Origin: Acidobacteriota bacterium
Lineage (GTDB): Bacteria; Acidobacteriota; Thermoanaerobaculia; Multivoradales; JBCCEF01
Length of the DNA stretch: 49,174 nt
Direction: 5' to 3'
Assembly: GCA_039028635.1 (NCBI GenBank)
Contig: JBCCHV010000051.1
Location: 1-49,174, forward strand
Translations under genes and position numbers: made by a program
Part shown: positions 2,812 to 18,131 of the stretch, in pieces
How the letters are laid out: the number at the start of each line of letters is the position of its first letter
Numbering within the stretch: the stretch's first letter is position 1
The notes under the pieces: model-generated
The model's input: the letters and a program-made list of their open reading frames with translations, nothing else
Database searches by the model: none
Told to the model about the DNA's origin: nothing

Positions 2812-3882
2812 TCACTCGCGGGCGACGCTTGCCGCAGGCTCGGAGGCGCCTACCGCAGGCGCCGTCGCGACCGCCGCCTGCTCCACCGCTGCGGCAGCGA
2901 AGCGGCGGATGATGTCGCCGGCGGGTTCGATGCGGTGAACCCCGGCAGCACTCTTGCCCGCCTGCCAGTACTCGCGTGAAGCGCTCTCGTCGAGGGAGGC
3001 ACGCTTGAGCTGCCAGACGGACTTGAGGGCGTAGAAGGTGCGCATCCAGTGCTTGCGGCGCCGTCCGCGCAGCATCCAGCGGGCGAAGGGCCCGGCCTTG
3101 AGCCCCATGCGCTCGATGTAGGGCGTATTGATCACCGCCACCGGCACGCCGGTGATGCGCTCCGAGAGCACGATGTCGTCTTCGCCGGCGTCGATGATGG
3201 CCTGCTTGTAGGCGGCCGCGGCGCGACACTCCTCGGTGGCGATGAAGCGTGTGCCCATCTGCACGCCGGCATAGCCCAGGCGCAGGGCGGCGACGAAATC
3301 CTCTTCACTGCCGACTCCACCGGCGCAGACCACCGGCAGGCCGAGGTCACCGATCTCGTCGAGGAGCTCGGCGGGGGTGCGGTCGCCGGCGTGGCCGCCG
3401 GCACGGCCGTTGACGGCGATCAGGCCATCGACTCCACCCTCGGCCCCCTTGAGGGCCCACTTGCGCTCGGTGACGTCGTGGTAGACGAAGCCGCCGACGG
3501 CGTGGACCTTCTCCACCACCCAACGGGGATTGCCCAAGGAGGTGACGAAGAAGCGCACCCCTTCTTCGAGGGCGATGTCGATCCAGCGCTGCATACGTTC
3601 GAAGTAGGTCTTCGAGGACTTCTCGATCAGGGCGTTCATGCCGATCGGACGGCCACCGGCGAGCTGCTGGATCAGGCGCACTCCGGCGCGGAAGTCGTGA
3701 CCGTGGACGTAGGTCAGAGAGATCGGCTGCAGCACCCCCATCCCGCCGGCGGCGGACGCCGCTCCGACCAGCTCCGGATTGCTGCAGGGATACATCGGCC
3801 CGCAGATCAGCGGCACCTCGATGCCGAGCTGGCGGGTCAGCTCCGTTTCGAGGGCGGACGTCGCAATCGGCGAATCACTCAT
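2812..3882 (-). CDS. Nitronate monooxygenase / 2-nitropropane dioxygenase-like FMN oxidoreductase
   Basis: A 356-aa TIM-barrel flavoprotein of the NAD(P)H-dependent flavin oxidoreductase / nitronate monooxygenase family. Family features are the N-terminal [13 protein letters not shown] segment, the glycine-rich phosphate-binding segment [10 protein letters not shown] (about residues 160-170), and [14 protein letters not shown] followed by [13 protein letters not shown] in the C-terminal half, which hold FMN. The family oxidises nitronates, but many members have other or unknown substrates; a role in lipid or nitro-compound metabolism cannot be chosen from sequence. The C terminus ends in an Ala-rich tail. 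The start ATG at 3882 overlaps the stop of the upstream DUF4442 gene by 4 bp, so the two form an operon. Confidence 0.85.
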
Positions 3883-4358
3883 TTCGGGCTCAACCTCCAG
3901 TGGGCGGTCACCCGCGCCACCACGTCGCCGGCATCATCGCGAATCTCCGCTACCACCGGAAAGTCCTGGGTTTCGACAACCTCCGGCGGCTCGCAGCGGC
4001 ACTCGGCGATCAGCCGCCCGCGGGCTTTCTTGAGGTAGTCGGCGGAAAGTCGGGTGACGATGCCGCGCACCGACGGTTTCAGACCGGTGAGCATCGCCAG
4101 ACCGCTGGCGAACTCGCCGACATTGACCAGGGCGACGGCGTGGATCGACGCCAGGTGGTTGCGCACCTTGCGGCGGTCGCGGAGGGACACCACCACATGC
4201 CCCGGCTCGAGGCTCTCGACCCGCGCCCCGACGGTACCGGTATAGGGAACGGAGAAGGCCACGGCGCGGCTGAACATCCACCGCCCCAAGGGCAGCGAGC
4301 TCAGGCGCTGCCAGCTTGCCAGGGTTTGAGCACCGGGAGAGGGATTCGCTTTCGCCAT
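3879..4358 (-). CDS. DUF4442 hotdog-fold protein (thioesterase-like)
   Basis: A 159-aa protein with the pattern of a DUF4442/PaaI-like hotdog domain: [20 protein letters not shown], then the central helix [20 protein letters not shown], then the strand [19 protein letters not shown]. Such proteins usually hydrolyse or bind acyl-CoA. The ATG at 4358 is chosen over the one at 4406 because a GAGAA sequence lies 7 nt upstream and the extra N-terminal residues are not family-like. It overlaps the downstream nitronate monooxygenase gene by 4 bp. The substrate is unknown. Confidence 0.75.
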
Positions 4359-4528
4359 GGCGCCATTCTCACCCACGGCCGCGGTCGGCACCAAGCGGGC
4401 GGACAACCTCTCCTGTTCGACCCGCGTACCAGGAGGCGAGGGCCGCCCCCGGAGACGGCGACCCGCAGAGGGATAATCCCAGCAGACCGACTCTTTCTTT
4501 CCGCCGTCCGACCTCGAGGAGATCCGTC

Positions 4529-5827
4529 ATGATGCGCCCAGTGCTCACCGTCCTTTTCGCGCTCTCCCTGCCTTCGGTCATGGTGGCGGCCCCCGGAGCA
4601 GAGTCCACCTACTTGCTGCCGAGCGACGGCGAAGGACAGCAGCACTGGCCGCGCTGGCGCGGTCCTGGCGGACAAGGTGAGGCGGTGGGTAGCGGCTTTC
4701 CGGATCGCTGGTCCGCCACCGAGAACGTCCGGTGGAAGGTGCCGGTGGCCGGCCGCGGTAACTCGTCGCCCATTCTGTGGCGCGACAAGATCTTCCTCAC
4801 CACCGCCTACGACGGCGGCAAACGGCGCTCGCTGATCGCCTTCGACCGCGCCACCGGCCGCCAGCTCTGGGAGACCTTCGCCCCGGACACCCAGCCCGAA
4901 GGCGCCCACGCCAAGAACGGCTTCGCCTCCTCGACGCCGACCACCGACGGTGAGCGCATCTACGCCTACTTCGGCAACCACGGCCTGCTCGCCGTCGACT
5001 TCGCCGGCAAGCTCGCCTGGCATCGTCCGGTGGGTACCTTCGACGCCTTCCACGGCACCGCCTCCTCGCCGCTGCTGCATGACGGACGACTCTTCCTGGT
5101 GCAGGATCACCGCGGTACCGGGGGCTCCTTCGTCGCCGCCTACGAGCCGGCAACCGGCAACCCACTGTGGCGCACACCGCGCCAGGCCAAGGTCGGCTGG
5201 AACACGCCCATCGCCGTTCGCGTCGGCGAGCGCGACGAGCTGATCGTCAGCGGCCAGCAGCAAGTGCAGGCCTACGACCCGGCCAACGGCAAGGAGCTGT
5301 GGACTGCCCGCGGCAACACCTTCGAAGCCATCCCCACCCCGGTGGTGGGCCACGGTTTGCTCTTCGCCTCTTCCGGCCGCGGCGGGCCGACCCTCGCCAT
5401 CCGCCCCGGCGGTAAGGGCGACGTCACCGACAGCCACATCGTCTGGCAAGCGCCGAAGGGCTCCCCCTTCGTGCCCTCCACCCAGCTCGCCGGCGACTAT
5501 CTCTACATGGTCAACGACATGGCCGCCATCGCCACCTGTTACGCGGCGAAGAGCGGCGAGGTGGTCTGGCAAGGGCGCCTCGGCAAGGCCCGGCGCGAAG
5601 GTTTCTCGGCCTCACCGGTGCTGGCCGACGACAAGGTCTTCTTCACCAACGACGAAGGCGAGACTTTCGTCCTCGCCACCGGACCGAAGTTCGAGATCCT
5701 GCGGGTCAACGAGCTGGGCGAGAACGTCCTCGCCTCGCCGGCGGCGGTCGACGGCGTGTGGTACTTCCGCACCGCCGGGCACCTGCTCGCGATCGGCCAT
5801 CCGCAACCGAAGCCGGCGGCCAAGTGA
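4529..5827 (+). CDS. Exported PQQ-like beta-propeller repeat protein
   Basis: A 432-aa protein starting MMRPVLTVLFALSLPSVMVA, a signal peptide probably cut near residue 20. The reading frame is open further upstream to 4316, but ATG 4529 follows a GAGGAG Shine-Dalgarno (4516-4521) and starts directly with the signal peptide. The body has repeated blades of the quinoprotein type (AYDPANGKELW, SGEVVWQGRLG), preceded by the WPRWRGPGGQG motif common in Planctomycetes and Acidobacteriota propellers. No catalytic residues of PQQ dehydrogenases are evident, so it is more likely a periplasmic scaffold or binding protein. It overlaps the following gene by 4 bp (GTGA). Confidence 0.85.
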   Translation: MMRPVLTVLFALSLPSVMVAAPGAESTYLLPSDGEGQQHWPRWRGPGGQGEAVGSGFPDRWSATENVRWKVPVAGRGNSSPILWRDKIFLTTAYDGGKRRSLIAFDRATGRQLWETFAPDTQPEGAHAKNGFASSTPTTDGERIYAYFGNHGLLAVDFAGKLAWHRPVGTFDAFHGTASSPLLHDGRLFLVQDHRGTGGSFVAAYEPATGNPLWRTPRQAKVGWNTPIAVRVGERDELIVSGQQQVQAYDPANGKELWTARGNTFEAIPTPVVGHGLLFASSGRGGPTLAIRPGGKGDVTDSHIVWQAPKGSPFVPSTQLAGDYLYMVNDMAAIATCYAAKSGEVVWQGRLGKARREGFSASPVLADDKVFFTNDEGETFVLATGPKFEILRVNELGENVLASPAAVDGVWYFRTAGHLLAIGHPQPKPAAK

Positions 5828-6369
5828 GCCCTCGCCAGCGCTGCCGGTGGCGACTCATGGGTTGGATGCTCCTGCTGGCCGCCAGCCCCCTCGCCGCCGA
5901 AGTCGAAACGGCGCCCTTCGACTGGACCCTCGGCACCTGGGAAGGAGTGCGCCGTGACGCCGCCGACGGCAGCGAGGAAGCGATGACCTTGCGGGTCGAG
6001 CCCATCCTCGGCGGTGCCGGCCAGCAGCGCCACCTCGAGGTGCGTCTCGACGATCGCGTCTACCGCGGCTACTCGGTCCAGCTGTTCGATCACCGCCTCG
6101 GCAAGTGGGTGCGGCAGTACGCCAACCAGGTTCGCGGGCGATTCACCCGCCTCGAAGGAGAGATCGAGGCCGACGGCCGAAGTGTTTGGCGCGGGGCGGC
6201 CCGCGAACGGACCCGCGAGTCGCGCCTCACCTCGGAGCGCCTCGGCACCGACCGTTGGCGGCGCACCATGGCGGTCTCCGACGATGACGGCAAGAGCTGG
6301 CGGGGGTTGTGGACCGATGAGCTGCGGCGGGCAGAAGGCGGCGCAGATTCCCTGCCCGCGCCGCCTTAG
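5824..6369 (+). CDS. Small exported protein of unknown function
   Basis: A 181-aa protein. GTG 5824 overlaps the stop of the propeller gene by 4 bp; an alternative ATG at 5857 would begin immediately before the hydrophobic stretch GWMLLLAASPLAAEV, which looks like a signal peptide. The mature part begins with FDWTLGTWEGVRRDA and then WR- and R-rich beta strands. This resembles calycin/lipocalin-like domains that open with a G-x-W motif and are annotated as DUF1579-like proteins. I cannot name a function. Its coupling to the beta-propeller gene suggests a shared periplasmic task. Confidence 0.7.
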   Translation: MSPRQRCRWRLMGWMLLLAASPLAAEVETAPFDWTLGTWEGVRRDAADGSEEAMTLRVEPILGGAGQQRHLEVRLDDRVYRGYSVQLFDHRLGKWVRQYANQVRGRFTRLEGEIEADGRSVWRGAARERTRESRLTSERLGTDRWRRTMAVSDDDGKSWRGLWTDELRRAEGGADSLPAPP

Positions 6370-13339: not shown

Positions 13340-16300
13340 CTACTGACGCCGGCGGATGAAGACTCCGTAGCCGACCTCGCCTTCCTCACTGGCGATGGAA
13401 GAGACGATGTTGTAGCGGATCGACGGCCAGATATCGAGCTTGAAGGGACCGTTGATGAGAAATCGGAACTGCAGCCGCAGGCGGTGGTTTTCGCCTTCCG
13501 TGTCACGCGTCTCGTCGAGCCACTTGTAGCTGTTGTCGAGGCGCCAGTTGACCGGCGTCTTCCACAGGTGGGTGGCCCAGCCCAGGCTGACGACGGCCGC
13601 TTCGTCGGCCTCGGTGGGATAGCCGAAGCCGACCAGGCCGCGGCGCGAGGGATTGCCCTCCAGACGCGAGAAGTAGTCGAGGTTCCAACCCTTCCAGTAG
13701 CCGATGGCGCTGTTCAAGCTGCTGCCCTGACCGACCCTCCAGAACCCACCGAGGCTGGCGCGTGCCACCTGGTACTCGTCCTCCAGGGGCGCCGCGGCGT
13801 CGATCCCCCAGGGCTGCCAGTCGTCGCGCTCGGCGGCCTCGTAGCCGACCTCGGCGGTGAAATGACCCCAGCGGCGGGTGAGGGCGAGATCCAAGACCCG
13901 TTCTTGCGTCTCGTTGGGAAGCACGAACCGCGGGTCGGTGTCGTCGGTCCCGTCGAAGGACAGGTCCGTCAGCACCAGTGAGCTGGTGAGGGAGGTTCGC
14001 CGGCTCAACGGCATGGCGAGGCTGAGGGCGAGGGCGGACCGCTGTATCTCGAGGGAGCCGTCGAGCTCGCCGTCGGCGGTCGGGATCTTCAGGTTGCGGC
14101 GATCGGAAGAGTAGGGGACCTGCAGAAAGGCCGAGAAGGTCCAATCGTTGCGCAGGAAGTTTGGAATGCTCAGTCCGAGGTTGGCGTCTTCCAGGAAGAA
14201 GCCGATGAAGGCCTGGTAGCCACGGTCCAGGAAATCCTGATCGGAGATGGTGATGCCGGGATAGAAGTCGGAATCTTCGTCGTCCCCCAGCCCGAAGAGC
14301 GAAAGGTTGGTTCGGGTCGAGAAGGCATGGATATCCGCCAGGGAGCGATCTCCATAGTCCGCCGGCGGTGGACTGGCAGGCTCGGACGACGAAGCGGCCT
14401 CGGCTTGCCCTGCCGTTGAGGTGCCCGCAGGAGTCGCGGCCGCCGGTGCCGGCTCGGCCACCTCGAAGCCGGCCAGGTGACGATCACCGCCGCGGTCCTT
14501 GACCAGCCAGCGATGCCCCTCCGGCGGCGTCTCGACGTGGATCATGATGTCGCTGGCGTAGGCCTCTTGGACCACCTGCTCGATATCCGGCCGGTTGAAC
14601 TTGAAGTCTTCGCGCACGGTGTCCGTCTGCACCGTGAACATGCGGCCAAAGCTGCTGCTGGTGCGGGTGCCGCGGCGCCGGGTCCAGTCCCACCAGCACT
14701 GCCCGTCCTGGGCGATCCAACGATAGAAGTAGGTGCGATCCTGGCTGATGAAGCGGCCGTCGATGCCCCTCTGGATCGTCCTCAGGCGATGGTGGGCGTG
14801 ATTCTCTTGGTCCAGCCACACCACCCCACTGACGAAGCTGCCATCCTCGCGAGTGCTCGCCCGCAGCGGCCGGAAGCCGATCTTGTAGGTCGGCCGGCCA
14901 TCGATTTCCTCGTCGCCGAGATAGTCGTAGGCGTAGGTCTCGTCGAGCTCGACATCCAGAGGGTTGAGCTGCAGCAGGGCCTCGCTGCGGAACAGTCGCC
15001 CCTTGAGCAGCTTCTCCTCGGGATAGGGCACGCCATTGATGCTCAAGCGGAGGTGGTGATAGTCCGTCAGGCGGCCTTTTCGCTGGATGATGCGATGGGT
15101 CCAGGTGGTGCGGTCGGCGCCCGGAAAGTGCCCCATGCCGCTGAGGTATTCCATGACATCGAGGGACTCGAAGCGCTCGAGCTGACGCTCCCGGAAGACC
15201 TGGTTTTCGACCACCTCCTCGTAGGGATTGACGATGGGCGTGTCGCTCACCTCGACTCCCAGGGTGGTGGTCTTGGGGCCGAGAGGCTCGAGCTCGAAGA
15301 GGTACTGGTCGTACTGCCCGTCGACGGTCAGGGTCGAGCCCTTGCCGGTGCTCTCGAACTCGAATCCTGCCCCTCCCGGGAACACCAGCCTGGCCTCCAG
15401 GCGATCGGCCAGGGCGATCTCGATCTGCTCTCGCCCGGCGGCGTAGAGCGCCAGGAAGAGGTTGCCGGTTTCGGCCTTGAGAAAGAACCGCACCCGCTCC
15501 GAATCGATGCCGCGCACCGACGGCTGGGTGTCGAGGACGGCGATACCCGAGGCCTGAATCTCTTCGAGAAAGAGATGGTGAACCTCGCTCAGGCGCAGGT
15601 TTTCGAGGATCACCACCTCGTCTCCCCGAACCCCGGCCTCGAGCAGGTGACTCAAGACCGGCCGATGGCGAGCCGCGGCACGAGACCACAGGCGGGCCGT
15701 CGCATCGACCTCGGGTACCGCCGTCGACGACGAATCGTTGCGGACGTAGGAATCGACATAGGGCGCCAAGCCGAAGCTCACCAGCCGTGCCACCGCCGGG
15801 GCATCGCCCTCCAGCGCGACCTTCAGGTGGCTGGCGCCGGAGCGCGCTTCGAGAATGCGGTTCTTGAGCTCGAAGGCGGCCCCTTGCCAGTCGTCGATCT
15901 GCTGGCCGGCAATGCGAATGGCGAGGAAGCGGTGATGTCGAGGCACCGCGAACGGGGGTCCCGGAAAAGTGGCCTCCGAAACCTCTCCCTGCTCGACCCA
16001 GATCGGAAGCACTCCTTCGGCGCGCGGAATCCGGGAGGCGGCAGGAACCGTCGTCTGTCCCCGGCCGTCCCGCACCACCACCAGCACTCCGCGGCCACCG
16101 TCCTTGGCCAGCAGGTCGAAGGGCGCCAGAACCTGGTCGAGGAGATCCCGCGGCGTCGCCGCCGACAGAGGGCGAGCGATCTGCATGTCGTCGCGCACCA
16201 GGTCACTGCTGTAGACCACGTTGAGACCGTGATCGCGCAGATCGTGGAGGACATCGCGCAGCTGCCAGCAGAGATAGCGGCTGCCATCGAAGGACTCGGC

Positions 16301-16390
16301 GGCGACTGAGCCTGCCGTCAGGAGAACGGCCAGCATTGCCAGCGAACGCAGTGCGAGCCGCGAGGGGCGAGTGGTCACCGTGCAGGTCAT
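13340..16390 (-). CDS. Large exported protein: STN domain, central beta-sandwich region, C-terminal beta-barrel-like region
   Basis: A 1016-aa protein. ATG 16390 overlaps the FecR-like gene by 4 bp and opens a signal peptide cut near Ala31; the longer open frame to 17248 only shadows that gene. Residues ~40-110 (LRDVLHDLRDHGLNVVYSS, then DLLDQVLAPFDLLA) match the secretin/TonB short N-terminal (STN) fold. Residues ~110-390 are an unrecognised mixed region. Residues ~390-640 (YAYDYLGDEEIDGRPTYKIG, VSGVVWLDQENHAHHRLRTI) resemble a LolA-like sandwich. A Pro/Ala linker follows (about 660-700). The last ~290 residues alternate polar and aromatic residues like outer-membrane beta-strands. I see no TonB box or plug domain, and the last residue is Gln, not aromatic. 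Likely an outer-membrane signalling component; function unknown. Confidence 0.75.
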   Translation of the reverse strand: MTCTVTTRPSRLALRSLAMLAVLLTAGSVAAESFDGSRYLCWQLRDVLHDLRDHGLNVVYSSDLVRDDMQIARPLSAATPRDLLDQVLAPFDLLAKDGGRGVLVVVRDGRGQTTVPAASRIPRAEGVLPIWVEQGEVSEATFPGPPFAVPRHHRFLAIRIAGQQIDDWQGAAFELKNRILEARSGASHLKVALEGDAPAVARLVSFGLAPYVDSYVRNDSSSTAVPEVDATARLWSRAAARHRPVLSHLLEAGVRGDEVVILENLRLSEVHHLFLEEIQASGIAVLDTQPSVRGIDSERVRFFLKAETGNLFLALYAAGREQIEIALADRLEARLVFPGGAGFEFESTGKGSTLTVDGQYDQYLFELEPLGPKTTTLGVEVSDTPIVNPYEEVVENQVFRERQLERFESLDVMEYLSGMGHFPGADRTTWTHRIIQRKGRLTDYHHLRLSINGVPYPEEKLLKGRLFRSEALLQLNPLDVELDETYAYDYLGDEEIDGRPTYKIGFRPLRASTREDGSFVSGVVWLDQENHAHHRLRTIQRGIDGRFISQDRTYFYRWIAQDGQCWWDWTRRRGTRTSSSFGRMFTVQTDTVREDFKFNRPDIEQVVQEAYASDIMIHVETPPEGHRWLVKDRGGDRHLAGFEVAEPAPAAATPAGTSTAGQAEAASSSEPASPPPADYGDRSLADIHAFSTRTNLSLFGLGDDEDSDFYPGITISDQDFLDRGYQAFIGFFLEDANLGLSIPNFLRNDWTFSAFLQVPYSSDRRNLKIPTADGELDGSLEIQRSALALSLAMPLSRRTSLTSSLVLTDLSFDGTDDTDPRFVLPNETQERVLDLALTRRWGHFTAEVGYEAAERDDWQPWGIDAAAPLEDEYQVARASLGGFWRVGQGSSLNSAIGYWKGWNLDYFSRLEGNPSRRGLVGFGYPTEADEAAVVSLGWATHLWKTPVNWRLDNSYKWLDETRDTEGENHRLRLQFRFLINGPFKLDIWPSIRYNIVSSIASEEGEVGYGVFIRRRQ

Positions 16391-17376
16391 CGGACGCCTC
16401 CCTCTTCGATCCGCACCACGCCATCGGTCCGCTGGTGCGAGAGACCACTGGATTGGAGAATCACCGGCAGAGCGACATCCGGAGTCAGGCCGCGCAGATC
16501 CCCGTGCAGAGTGATCTCGCGGGCGCGCCGCTCGAGGCCAGGATCGGCGTACTCGAGACGCCAGCCGGTCTCGCGACTCGCCCAGTCGAGGAACTCGCGC
16601 AGCTTGCGACCCTCGAGGTCGAAGCGCGGCGCGATCTCCAGGTTCCAGCTCCAAGGCGCGCCATGAAGGGCGATGGCAGCACGCCGCACGGCGCCATCGC
16701 GCGCCAAGACCAACTCGTCGCCGACCCCGGCCTCGAGCCTCCGCCGGCCCTGCTCCACCCGCACCCGGCCCTCGCGCACCCGCACCCGCAGGGCGTCCTG
16801 GGCCAGCCGCACCTCGAACTGGGTTCCGAGGTTGCGCACCACGCCGAAGCCGGTATGGACCGCGAGCTCGTCGGCATCCACGCCGGCGGAGTCGAGATAG
16901 AGGGCACCACGCTCGAGGTGAAGCTCGCGATCGGAGCTCAGGCGGACGCGAGAATCGACATCCAGGCGCAGAGATTGACCACCGGCGAGGCGCAGGGCGG
17001 CGCGACCGGAAGGGGTCGTCGCCACCACCGCATCGGCCATCAGCTCTTCGCCGAAGCGCAGGGCCTCGCCGGCCACCGCCACCGATCCGCTCATCGCCTC
17101 CACCGTCGCCACGACGGTGGAAGAGGCGGTGCCCGGACGCCACGGTCCGCTGGCGATCCAAACGCCGACGATCGCCAACGCCAGGGCCGCGGCCGCCAAG
17201 GTGAGCTGCCAACGACGACGGCGACGGTGACGCAGCAGGCCGCGCCACTCCTCGCGCACCGCTCGGTGGACTCGCTGCCGAACCTCCGACGGCGCTTCCT
17301 CCGGCTGGGGCACGGCGCGCAGTAGCCGTGCGATCTGGTCCTGACCGGCACCGGCGCGACGTTTCTCACGGGTCAT
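16387..17376 (-). CDS. FecR-like transmembrane regulator with C-terminal STN-like domain
   Basis: A 329-aa protein. ATG 17376 follows a GAGGAGG Shine-Dalgarno and overlaps the sigma factor stop by 4 bp. Residues 1-55 are cytoplasmic and Arg-rich; a transmembrane helix spans ~57-76 (WQLTLAAAALALAIVGVWIA). The FecR domain (~95-215) has VEAMSGSVAVAG, AALRLAGGQSLRLDVDSRVR and GFGVVRNLGTQFEVRL. Residues ~240-329 (FDLEGRKLREFLDWASRETG, then ITLHGDLRGLTPDVALPVIL) form an STN-like module. FecR proteins relay an outer-membrane signal to a cognate ECF sigma factor; the gene order sigma factor, FecR, STN-barrel supports this. Confidence 0.85.
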   Translation of the reverse strand: MTREKRRAGAGQDQIARLLRAVPQPEEAPSEVRQRVHRAVREEWRGLLRHRRRRRWQLTLAAAALALAIVGVWIASGPWRPGTASSTVVATVEAMSGSVAVAGEALRFGEELMADAVVATTPSGRAALRLAGGQSLRLDVDSRVRLSSDRELHLERGALYLDSAGVDADELAVHTGFGVVRNLGTQFEVRLAQDALRVRVREGRVRVEQGRRRLEAGVGDELVLARDGAVRRAAIALHGAPWSWNLEIAPRFDLEGRKLREFLDWASRETGWRLEYADPGLERRAREITLHGDLRGLTPDVALPVILQSSGLSHQRTDGVVRIEEGGVR

Positions 17377-17993
17377 GGGGATGCCTCCTCGGCGAGGCCG
17401 AGCCTGCCCGGACCCAGGTCGCGGGCGGCGTTCAAGCTGTCGCGAAAAGCGCGGCGGGCCCGGGTCAGCAGCGACTCGGCAGCCTTGGGACCGACTCCCA
17501 GCCGTGCCGCGATCTCCCTCACCGAGCGATCCTGCATGTACTTCCAGGTCAATACCTGGCCGTAGCGCCGCGGCAGGCGATCGAGTACCGCCTGAACGAA
17601 GCGAGCGACCTCCCGCGCCTCGAGCCGAGCCTCGGGACCATCGCCCTCGGCGGCGATCAGTGACTCGAGGGCGGCCCGCACTTCGGGGAGATCTTCGATC
17701 AGCGGGTAAGCGGCGCGTCGTCGCGGCGCCGTGGCGCTGATCTCGCGACGGCAGAAGGTACACAGCCAACTGAAGAGGGGCGCTTCGCCACGGTAGGTAA
17801 CGAGCTTGGAGATGGCCCGGCAGAGGGACGCCTGAACGATCTCTTCGGCGAGATCGGCATCACCACCGAGCCGTGTCAGGGCGAAGCGATAGAGGCTGGG
17901 AAAGTAGTGTCCGAAGAACTCCTCGAAGGCAGGATCCTGGCCCGCGAGCATGCGCTGGACCAGAATCTTGTCGTCGAGATGGATCGTCGTCAT
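17373..17993 (-). CDS. ECF-type RNA polymerase sigma factor
   Basis: A 206-aa sigma factor from ATG 17993 (MTTIHLDDKILVQRMLAGQD). GTG 18017 is possible but its GAAGAG sequence would sit too close. Region 2 is FGHYFPSLYRFALTRLGGDA, then EEIVQASLCRA, then FSWLCTFCRREI. Region 4 is DRLPRRYGQVLTWKYMQDRS followed by VREIAARLGVGPKAAESLLT. It heads a three-gene translationally coupled operon with the FecR-like regulator and the STN-barrel protein, so it is likely controlled by cell-surface signalling. The CxxxC-like pair in WLCTFCRRE is unusual in this position but may be chance. Confidence 0.88.
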   Translation of the reverse strand: MTTIHLDDKILVQRMLAGQDPAFEEFFGHYFPSLYRFALTRLGGDADLAEEIVQASLCRAISKLVTYRGEAPLFSWLCTFCRREISATAPRRRAAYPLIEDLPEVRAALESLIAAEGDGPEARLEAREVARFVQAVLDRLPRRYGQVLTWKYMQDRSVREIAARLGVGPKAAESLLTRARRAFRDSLNAARDLGPGRLGLAEEASP

Positions 17994-18101
17994 CGCCGTC
18001 TTCAGCCTCGTGTTCACCCTCTTCGATCATAAGAGGGGCCGAGCCGGCGAAATCCTTCGCCGCCGCTGAAGGACGACCCACATTCCACTCAGCGCCGGAA
18101 A

Positions 18102-18131
18102 CAAAAAGAGCCCGGGGGCAAGCCCCCGGGC
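18102..18131 (-). terminator. Rho-independent terminator of the M23/propeller gene
   Basis: A 10-bp perfect GC stem (18110-18119 with 18122-18131) with a two-base AA loop lies 37 bp beyond the stop at 18168. Read on the minus strand it is followed by CTCTTTTTG, the expected T run. Confidence 0.8.

Follow-up and report, generated by a model that had tools for sequence, protein, structure and literature searches.

A probable FecIR-type surface-signalling operon whose envelope partner is a predicted plugless outer-membrane protein

In descriptions of FecIR signalling, the usual outer-membrane sensor is a TonB-dependent receptor. What would report to the regulator at a locus where the partner carries the STN signalling domain and no recognisable plug? 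The question is raised by three minus-strand genes at 13340-17993 of a 49,174-nucleotide stretch (the window; contig JBCCHV010000051.1) from the 6.28-Mb genome of an Acidobacteriota bacterium. Our best explanation, to which we assign a probability of about 0.7, is an auto-inducing FecIR-type cell-surface signalling operon in which a plugless outer-membrane protein has taken the place of the TonB-dependent transducer; that it responds to a ligand, inserts as a barrel and signals is predicted. The genes encode an extracytoplasmic function (ECF) sigma factor, a FecR-type anti-sigma factor and the large STN protein. The original prediction, made by a model from the letters alone, had described them as coupled by 4-bp overlaps; its coordinates are right, and both the sigma/FecR and the FecR/barrel-gene junctions read ATGA. 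By these coordinates the three form one overlapping gene set, with the following features:

17373..17993, minus strand: ECF sigma factor gene (Pfam Sigma70_r4_2, E 3.9e-12; Sigma70_r2, E 2.5e-5)
16387..17376, minus strand: FecR-type anti-sigma factor gene (Pfam FecR, E 1.1e-14; ATGA overlap with the sigma gene)
about residues 56-78 of FecR, minus strand: single hydrophobic segment, read by eye
16822..16827, minus strand: FecR Gly184-Thr185, aligned with the self-cleavage bond Gly181-Thr182 of E. coli K-12 FecR
16402..16674, minus strand: C-terminal STN-like module of FecR (profile-profile match to the STN family of the partner)
13340..16390, minus strand: gene of the 1016-residue plugless transducer (open frame; predicted outer-membrane location)
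16295..16390, minus strand: signal peptide, residues 1-32, read by eye
16067..16294, minus strand: STN domain, residues 33-108 (identity to STNs of related loci, AlphaFold2, alignment, Pfam STN)
15281..16012, minus strand: shrunken glycosidase-like alpha/beta module and beta-sandwich, residues 127-370 (AlphaFold2, VIA-align)
14615..15109, minus strand: LolA/RseB-like sandwich, residues 428-592 (Pfam, PDB, Foldseek; low to middling model confidence)
13346..14317, minus strand: predicted 16-strand barrel of Omp85-like fold, residues 692-1015 (AlphaFold2 strands, VIA-align, weak Pfam Omp85)
18030..18059, minus strand: predicted operon promoter, CGAAGGAT-N16-CTCTTA (sole exact match in the 6.28-Mb genome)

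The partner shows neither part of a TonB-dependent receptor. At E<=1, ten family members, one of them without STN, gave no match to the Pfam Plug or TonB-barrel profiles. As a positive control, 23 other fetched STN proteins were scanned: three are of VWA type, and each of the remaining 20 has a Plug match at E<=0.01, which in 18 exceeds the curated cut-off. All but one of these 20 (the exception is at locus L094) lie beside a FecR gene, and the genome of the window itself contains 28 plug matches. A TonB-box pattern following the STN was absent from all nine family members with that domain, although the same pattern is insensitive, detecting just 9 of the 20 plug-bearing receptors.

An N-terminal STN is nonetheless present on this envelope partner. 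The domain shares 35-49% identity over 73-100 residues with the STNs at seven other loci that have related FecR genes, and 28-44% within a 31-row alignment, where Pfam STN at E<=1 matches 13 of the 31 domains (best 0.0039). The earlier description of a 1016-residue partner with an STN-like domain and without a visible plug is thus borne out by the related-locus identity and by the Plug scan. Beyond the STN, the AlphaFold2 model (8 sequences, mean predicted local distance difference test score (pLDDT) 63.9, predicted template modelling score 0.45) places an alpha/beta module with a beta-sandwich at residues 127-370, a second sandwich at 428-592, a low-confidence linker at 595-692 and a barrel at 692-1015. 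Whole-protein single-sequence scans of Pfam, NCBIfam and PDB returned nothing useful.

A glycosidase-like fold accounts for most of the long middle region reported in the original prediction. From residue 131 the AlphaFold2 blocks of this region stand at 59-92, and a second model of residues 118-640 has a mean pLDDT of 59.7. Residues of about 124-370 align with glycosidases of families GH51, GH44, GH30, GH39 and GH29, among others, at VIA-align Z 9.0-12.2 (root-mean-square deviation 4.1-6.4, 222-251 residues); these values lie above Z 8, below which a match may reflect merely a common arrangement, yet they are not strong. An active glycosidase is unlikely, as judged from the aligned sequences, because the module is about half the size of the matched enzymes and D229 is its only acidic residue invariant among 11 sequences. 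The pair of catalytic acids that glycoside hydrolases conserve in their TIM-barrel module was not found in those 11 sequences. The next domain is LolA-like: Pfam LolA_like matches 11 of 14 family members (best E 3.7e-6; the window copy, at E 0.022 and 14.9 of 30 bits, falls below the curated cut-off) and MucB_RseB matches six (best 1.3e-4). Compared with PDB, the profile of this region matched 4z48 (E 9e-4), 9tp6 and 3bk5 by sequence, and Foldseek rows comprise 3bk5, 3buu, 4z48 and 9tp6.

At the C terminus, AlphaFold2 models 16 long strands, within the 8-16 that had been set as support for a barrel. All 50 VIA-align matches listed are Omp85 or two-partner-secretion barrels (Z 17.0-21.3, root-mean-square deviation 3.3-4.7, 263-295 residues aligned). 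The LolA-like sandwich and barrel-like end that had been read from the sequence are therefore both recovered, by Pfam and by the model. It is in the AlphaFold2 model alone that a BamA-type 16-strand barrel, typical of the Omp85 superfamily, is seen; Omp85 homology by profile is suggestive only, with Pfam Omp85 matching 4 of 14 barrel members (best 0.0013). No family of the POTRA kind appeared among the Pfam matches at E<=1 in 10 members. In Omp85 proteins the loop that joins strands 11 and 12 carries VRG[FY]. Here the loop reads LVGF in the window and VPGY, IVGF or similar elsewhere, the glycine being invariant and the preceding arginine absent in all 14 sequences. Assignment to DUF5686 was tried and rejected: the Pfam match is weak in 4 of 14 members (best 0.011), and 21 relatives give none at E<=1.

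The other two proteins are conventional. Both sigma and FecR exceed their Pfam cut-offs, and an ECF sigma factor adjoining a FecR-domain anti-sigma factor is the FecIR arrangement. Gly-Thr occupies the cleavage position in 9 of 10 aligned FecRs of the family (Ala-Thr at L038); in E. coli FecR this bond, Gly181-Thr182, is the site of self-cleavage, as described in the available text of PMC9249621. The STN-like module noted earlier at the FecR end is real, in that its profile (25 sequences) matches the STN profile of the partners (31 sequences) by hhalign, with E 1.1e-5 one way and 6.1e-5 the other. It is not unusual: STN on both FecR and partner is the ordinary design of cell-surface signalling, because the FecR-type regulator PupR itself ends in an STN that, with a neighbouring subdomain, binds the STN of the transducer PupB (accessible portion of PMC7186176).

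A shared promoter motif suggests that the sigma factor drives its own operon. All nine genomes that have the system (9/9) carry CGAAGGAT-N16-STCHWA in front of the sigma gene, and the three with a divergent barrel gene carry it in front of that gene as well. Twelve genomes were searched for exact copies, nine that have the system and three that lack its STN form; of the 13 matches, 12 are at the system. A control with the reversed pattern gave 0, and from base composition a genome as large as that of the window is expected to hold 0.14 exact matches. The rarity elsewhere and the control are stronger facts than the 9/9 count. The genomes G046 and G004 contain no exact copy. Across 26 sigma genes, CGAAGGAT is found upstream exactly in 16 and with at most one mismatch in 24, the remaining two being L043, which has no upstream sequence, and L107, with two mismatches; in most cases STCHWA, or a sequence close to it, comes 16 bases further on. 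When the pattern was relaxed slightly, the 389 kb of fetched loci, which had been chosen for carrying sigma or STN genes, contained 21 matches, 20 of them upstream of such a gene. An identical motif also precedes sigma genes with TonB-type or VWA-type partners. In silico, then, the sigma factor would recognise the promoters of its own system, which answers the check proposed with the original prediction. The promoter also bears on the start of the sigma gene: the earliest possible start is an in-frame GTG at 18017, and ATG at 17993 is favoured because the predicted promoter ends at 18030, nearly abutting the GTG.

A wider regulon is not claimed for the genome of the window, as its one-mismatch matches (7) do not exceed the control (8) and so amount to background. 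The same genome holds four further FecR-domain matches (C108:1390-1668, which is L157, and others on contigs C70, C1 and C4), none of which carries the motif, because its only exact copy is in the window. The thirteenth exact match of the 12-genome search (L153, G005:C1, position 2829, minus strand) is probably due to chance; it is not upstream of a called gene, and the same stretch has a sigma/FecR pair some 1.7 kb off, at 4481-6123 on the plus strand. A further copy, at L049:2476 on the plus strand, precedes an unassigned 384-residue reading frame near a sigma/FecR pair.

Recurrence across genomes indicates that the three-gene arrangement is not chance. Full-length relatives of the large protein occur in 10 of 98 genomes, that of the window included, and nine carry the STN; in eight of these nine, the sigma and FecR genes are adjacent, which supplies the neighbourhood count that had been proposed. 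Five loci are co-linear (the window, L034, L036, L037 and L038) and three divergent (L039, L041 and L042). In the ninth genome, G010, the FecR gene is adjacent and the contig ends inside it, and the sigma gene lies elsewhere, 222 bases from a contig end. In the tenth, G046, no STN, FecR or sigma gene was found in the 8 kb taken. A search of 396 genomes of the phylum with residues 1-385 matched 29, of which six have STN and middle region, two the middle region without STN, and the rest STN only. An alignment-based scan of species genomes found seven loci in metagenome-assembled genomes of Thermoanaerobaculia (5), 'Acidobacteria' (1) and Acidobacteriota (1); the single-sequence version of that scan, and a viral scan, found no relative.

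In a tree of the LolA and barrel region (33 rows, two identical; root not inferred), the nine STN-bearing proteins form one clade with support 98/98, nested with STN-less relatives. The simplest reading is a single gain of STN within a family of STN-less barrel proteins, and this would suggest a way in which an outer-membrane protein already present could have become a sensor. The genome of the window has such an STN-less paralogue of its own (G000:C52:21069-23999, equal to L033:5070-8000), with similar proteins in many relatives. The sigma/FecR pairs are homologous whether the partner is plugless, TonB-type or VWA-type, and in the sigma and FecR tree (26 rows) partner types cluster, with 4 changes against a shuffled mean of 9.9. 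In the best tree the 8 rows of the plugless type do not group as a clade, but the approximately unbiased test does not reject a single clade (p-AU 0.452). TonB-type labels in this tree were first assigned by length; a plug was later identified by Pfam in every protein so labelled, and L093, labelled 'short', has one too. L100, fetched for an STN match, yielded no STN gene and was left out.

Several results weigh against our explanation. The excised window STN reaches only E 0.024 with Pfam STN, under the curated cut-off; against single E. coli sequences the family profiles give weak matches to the signalling domain of FecA (E 0.01 and 0.0066) and none to the FecR end (E 0.075 and 0.13). Profiles of the STN, the FecR end, the barrel and the middle region retrieved no related solved structure by sequence, and thus no solved STN, the LolA region alone being matched. 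The model of the large protein is of moderate quality. Foldseek's best 50 for the barrel, mostly Omp85-type, include OmpG, OprD/Occ, MOMP, AlgE and one TonB-dependent barrel, FrpB, and the hhalign match of the barrel to the Omp85 domains of relatives is weak (E 0.0013, probability 18%, 226 columns; the Omp85 comparison used 17 of 24 loci, three having been dropped for stops in the trimmed stretch and four for length). The regions in front of sigma genes to which the promoter pattern was fitted include these loci, so the 9/9 count is not independent, except for the site in G010, not seen before the pattern was fitted. Apart from the operon itself, the analysis yielded no target gene.

Taken together, the auto-inducing operon that we favour may work as follows. 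The barrel would lie in the outer membrane; having 16 strands, it would keep both ends in the periplasm, where the STN could meet the C-terminal domain of FecR. The STN-FecR contact may change when the glycosidase-like or LolA-like domains meet a ligand, when a ligand passes through the barrel, or alternatively with the state of the envelope. FecR, which retains the Gly-Thr site, would then be processed and the sigma factor released, and the freed sigma factor would induce its own operon and yield more barrel protein. Apparently the system would have the barrel protein as its output, much as in uptake that is induced by its substrate. This scheme predicts no energy input from TonB, and a glycan or lipid-linked compound would fit the domains as substrate. 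The specific proposal that this is TonB-free surface signalling, in which an Omp85-like barrel with dead-glycosidase and RseB/LolA-like sensors uses an STN adaptor to inform FecR of such a ligand or of the state of the envelope, is tentative, and we place it somewhat below even odds.

RseB and unfolded porins signal to RseA, and the same architecture could likewise serve as a sensor of envelope integrity, with the LolA/RseB-like domain binding a mislocalised lipoprotein or lipid, or the barrel misassembling, and the STN informing FecR. The LolA_like and MucB_RseB profile matches, the LolA-type PDB matches and the Omp85-like fold all suit this idea; however, a stress regulon should include other envelope genes, and the sole exact promoter in the genome is that of the operon, while the glycosidase-like module would be left without a role. 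We regard the idea as possible, with the odds clearly against it. It is unlikely that the STN-barrel gene is a mere, non-signalling target of the sigma/FecR pair and its STN a relic. The gene does stand as a separate divergent unit under the same promoter in three genomes, but the STN is kept in 9 of 9 members that accompany a sigma/FecR pair, the STN-bearing proteins are a single clade, and at the nearest STN-less relatives (L040, L088 and L089) no sigma or FecR gene was found in the 8-12 kb taken; the L088 gene is called short, and its lack of STN is read from the residues 1-385 search alone.

It is very improbable that the protein is a true TonB-dependent transducer with a plug and TonB box too diverged to have been recognised. 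The STN resembles those of other related-FecR loci, mostly plug-bearing receptors, the TonB-box pattern overlooks 11 of 20 true receptors, and FrpB stands among the Foldseek matches. Against this, the Plug profile separates the 10 members (none) from the other non-VWA STN proteins (20/20), the barrel profile aligns with the TonB barrels of sister systems over just 41 columns (E 0.068), and 16 strands are modelled, not the 22 of a TonB-dependent barrel (PMC2729926, available text). A plug, or a C terminus other than a barrel, had been named in advance as findings that would place the protein in a known family; neither appeared in the Plug scan, the AlphaFold2 model or the VIA-align comparison.

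Set beside known systems, the operon favoured here shares with FecA-FecR-FecI and PupB-PupR-PupI an ECF sigma factor, a FecR with Gly-Thr and a C-terminal STN, an N-terminal STN on the partner and predicted auto-induction (PMC7186176 and PMC9249621, in the parts available). It differs in its putative promoter and in its partner, in which glycosidase-like, LolA-like and 16-strand Omp85-like parts are found and no plug or TonB-type barrel was detected. The nearest precedent is VreA-VreR-VreI (PUMA3) of Pseudomonas aeruginosa, where the STN partner of the FecR-type regulator is not a TonB-dependent receptor; VreA is described in the accessible part of PMC2729926 as small, mostly soluble and without a barrel, with a TolA/TonB-like C-terminal domain. 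The window protein, for which a barrel is modelled, is not of this type. Signalling with a non-receptor partner was thus already known, and for Leptospira, too, a sigma/FecR pair is reported without any TonB receptor bearing an N-terminal extension (PMC12155086, available text). As to novelty, the plugless-barrel partner stands, yet the operon is a variant of FecIR cell-surface signalling, not a signalling system new in its entirety. Among the papers listed in the literature searched, from which subscription titles were mostly absent and where one listing gave 20 of 586 titles, we found no description of an STN on a plugless, Omp85-type or other non-TonB barrel in cell-surface signalling.

Three families share parts of the large protein. 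LolA-like and barrel parts recur in STN-less proteins common among relatives in Acidobacteriota, in which no STN is detected and no FecR gene occurs in the stretches taken at L040, L088, L089, L033 and L048; at L033 an unrelated ECF sigma gene lies about 3.6 kb downstream. The predicted 16-strand barrel is shared with the Omp85 superfamily (BamA, TamA, FhaC and CdiB), from which the window family differs in its lack of a POTRA match, of the loop arginine and of a strong Pfam Omp85 match. With RseB/MucB the link is a LolA-type sandwich tied to an anti-sigma pathway; here the domain is fused to a barrel and would act on FecR via the STN rather than on RseA.

If the TonB-free proposal holds, the STN would be a portable plug-in through which envelope proteins of unrelated kinds, VWA proteins among them, are linked to a single sigma/FecR family. 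The lack of a TonB plug in the partner suggests that this signalling route does not depend on nutrient import driven by TonB. With neither plug nor TonB box, such a barrel partner would uncouple the signalling module from TonB energy and make the TonB-needing steps of cell-surface signalling testable. The promoter motif common to TonB-type, VWA-type and plugless systems offers a handle for finding such systems in Acidobacteriota.

A second class of non-TonB partner for the same sigma/FecR family was seen at L043:2-4086, L044:60-3521 and L045:2695-6868. Its gene order is sigma (not captured in L044), FecR, a protein of about 370 residues, and a protein with STN, Big_7 Ig-like and VWA domains. 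TPR repeats were found in the L044 copy of the 370-residue protein, the sole copy scanned, and the promoter motif is present at L045.

Around the operon, the downstream neighbour is a convergent zinc alcohol dehydrogenase gene. A hairpin scan marked one site between the operon and the preceding gene, although terminator-like hairpins are no commoner in this region than in shuffled sequence:

18110..18131, minus strand: terminator-like hairpin after the preceding gene

At L035:208-2055 (minus strand) a DUF885 gene follows the barrel gene, overlapping its called frame by 29 bp, and L036 also has a following gene. Beside the STN TonB receptor of L094 lies a gene (3351-4133, minus strand) for a 260-residue protein that matches the barrel profile at E 3.5e-8 and no Pfam family at E<=0.01. 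Finally, at 154-2726 of the window (minus strand), another ECF sigma gene (2118-2726) overlaps by 4 bp a gene for a YfbK-like VWA protein (154-2121).

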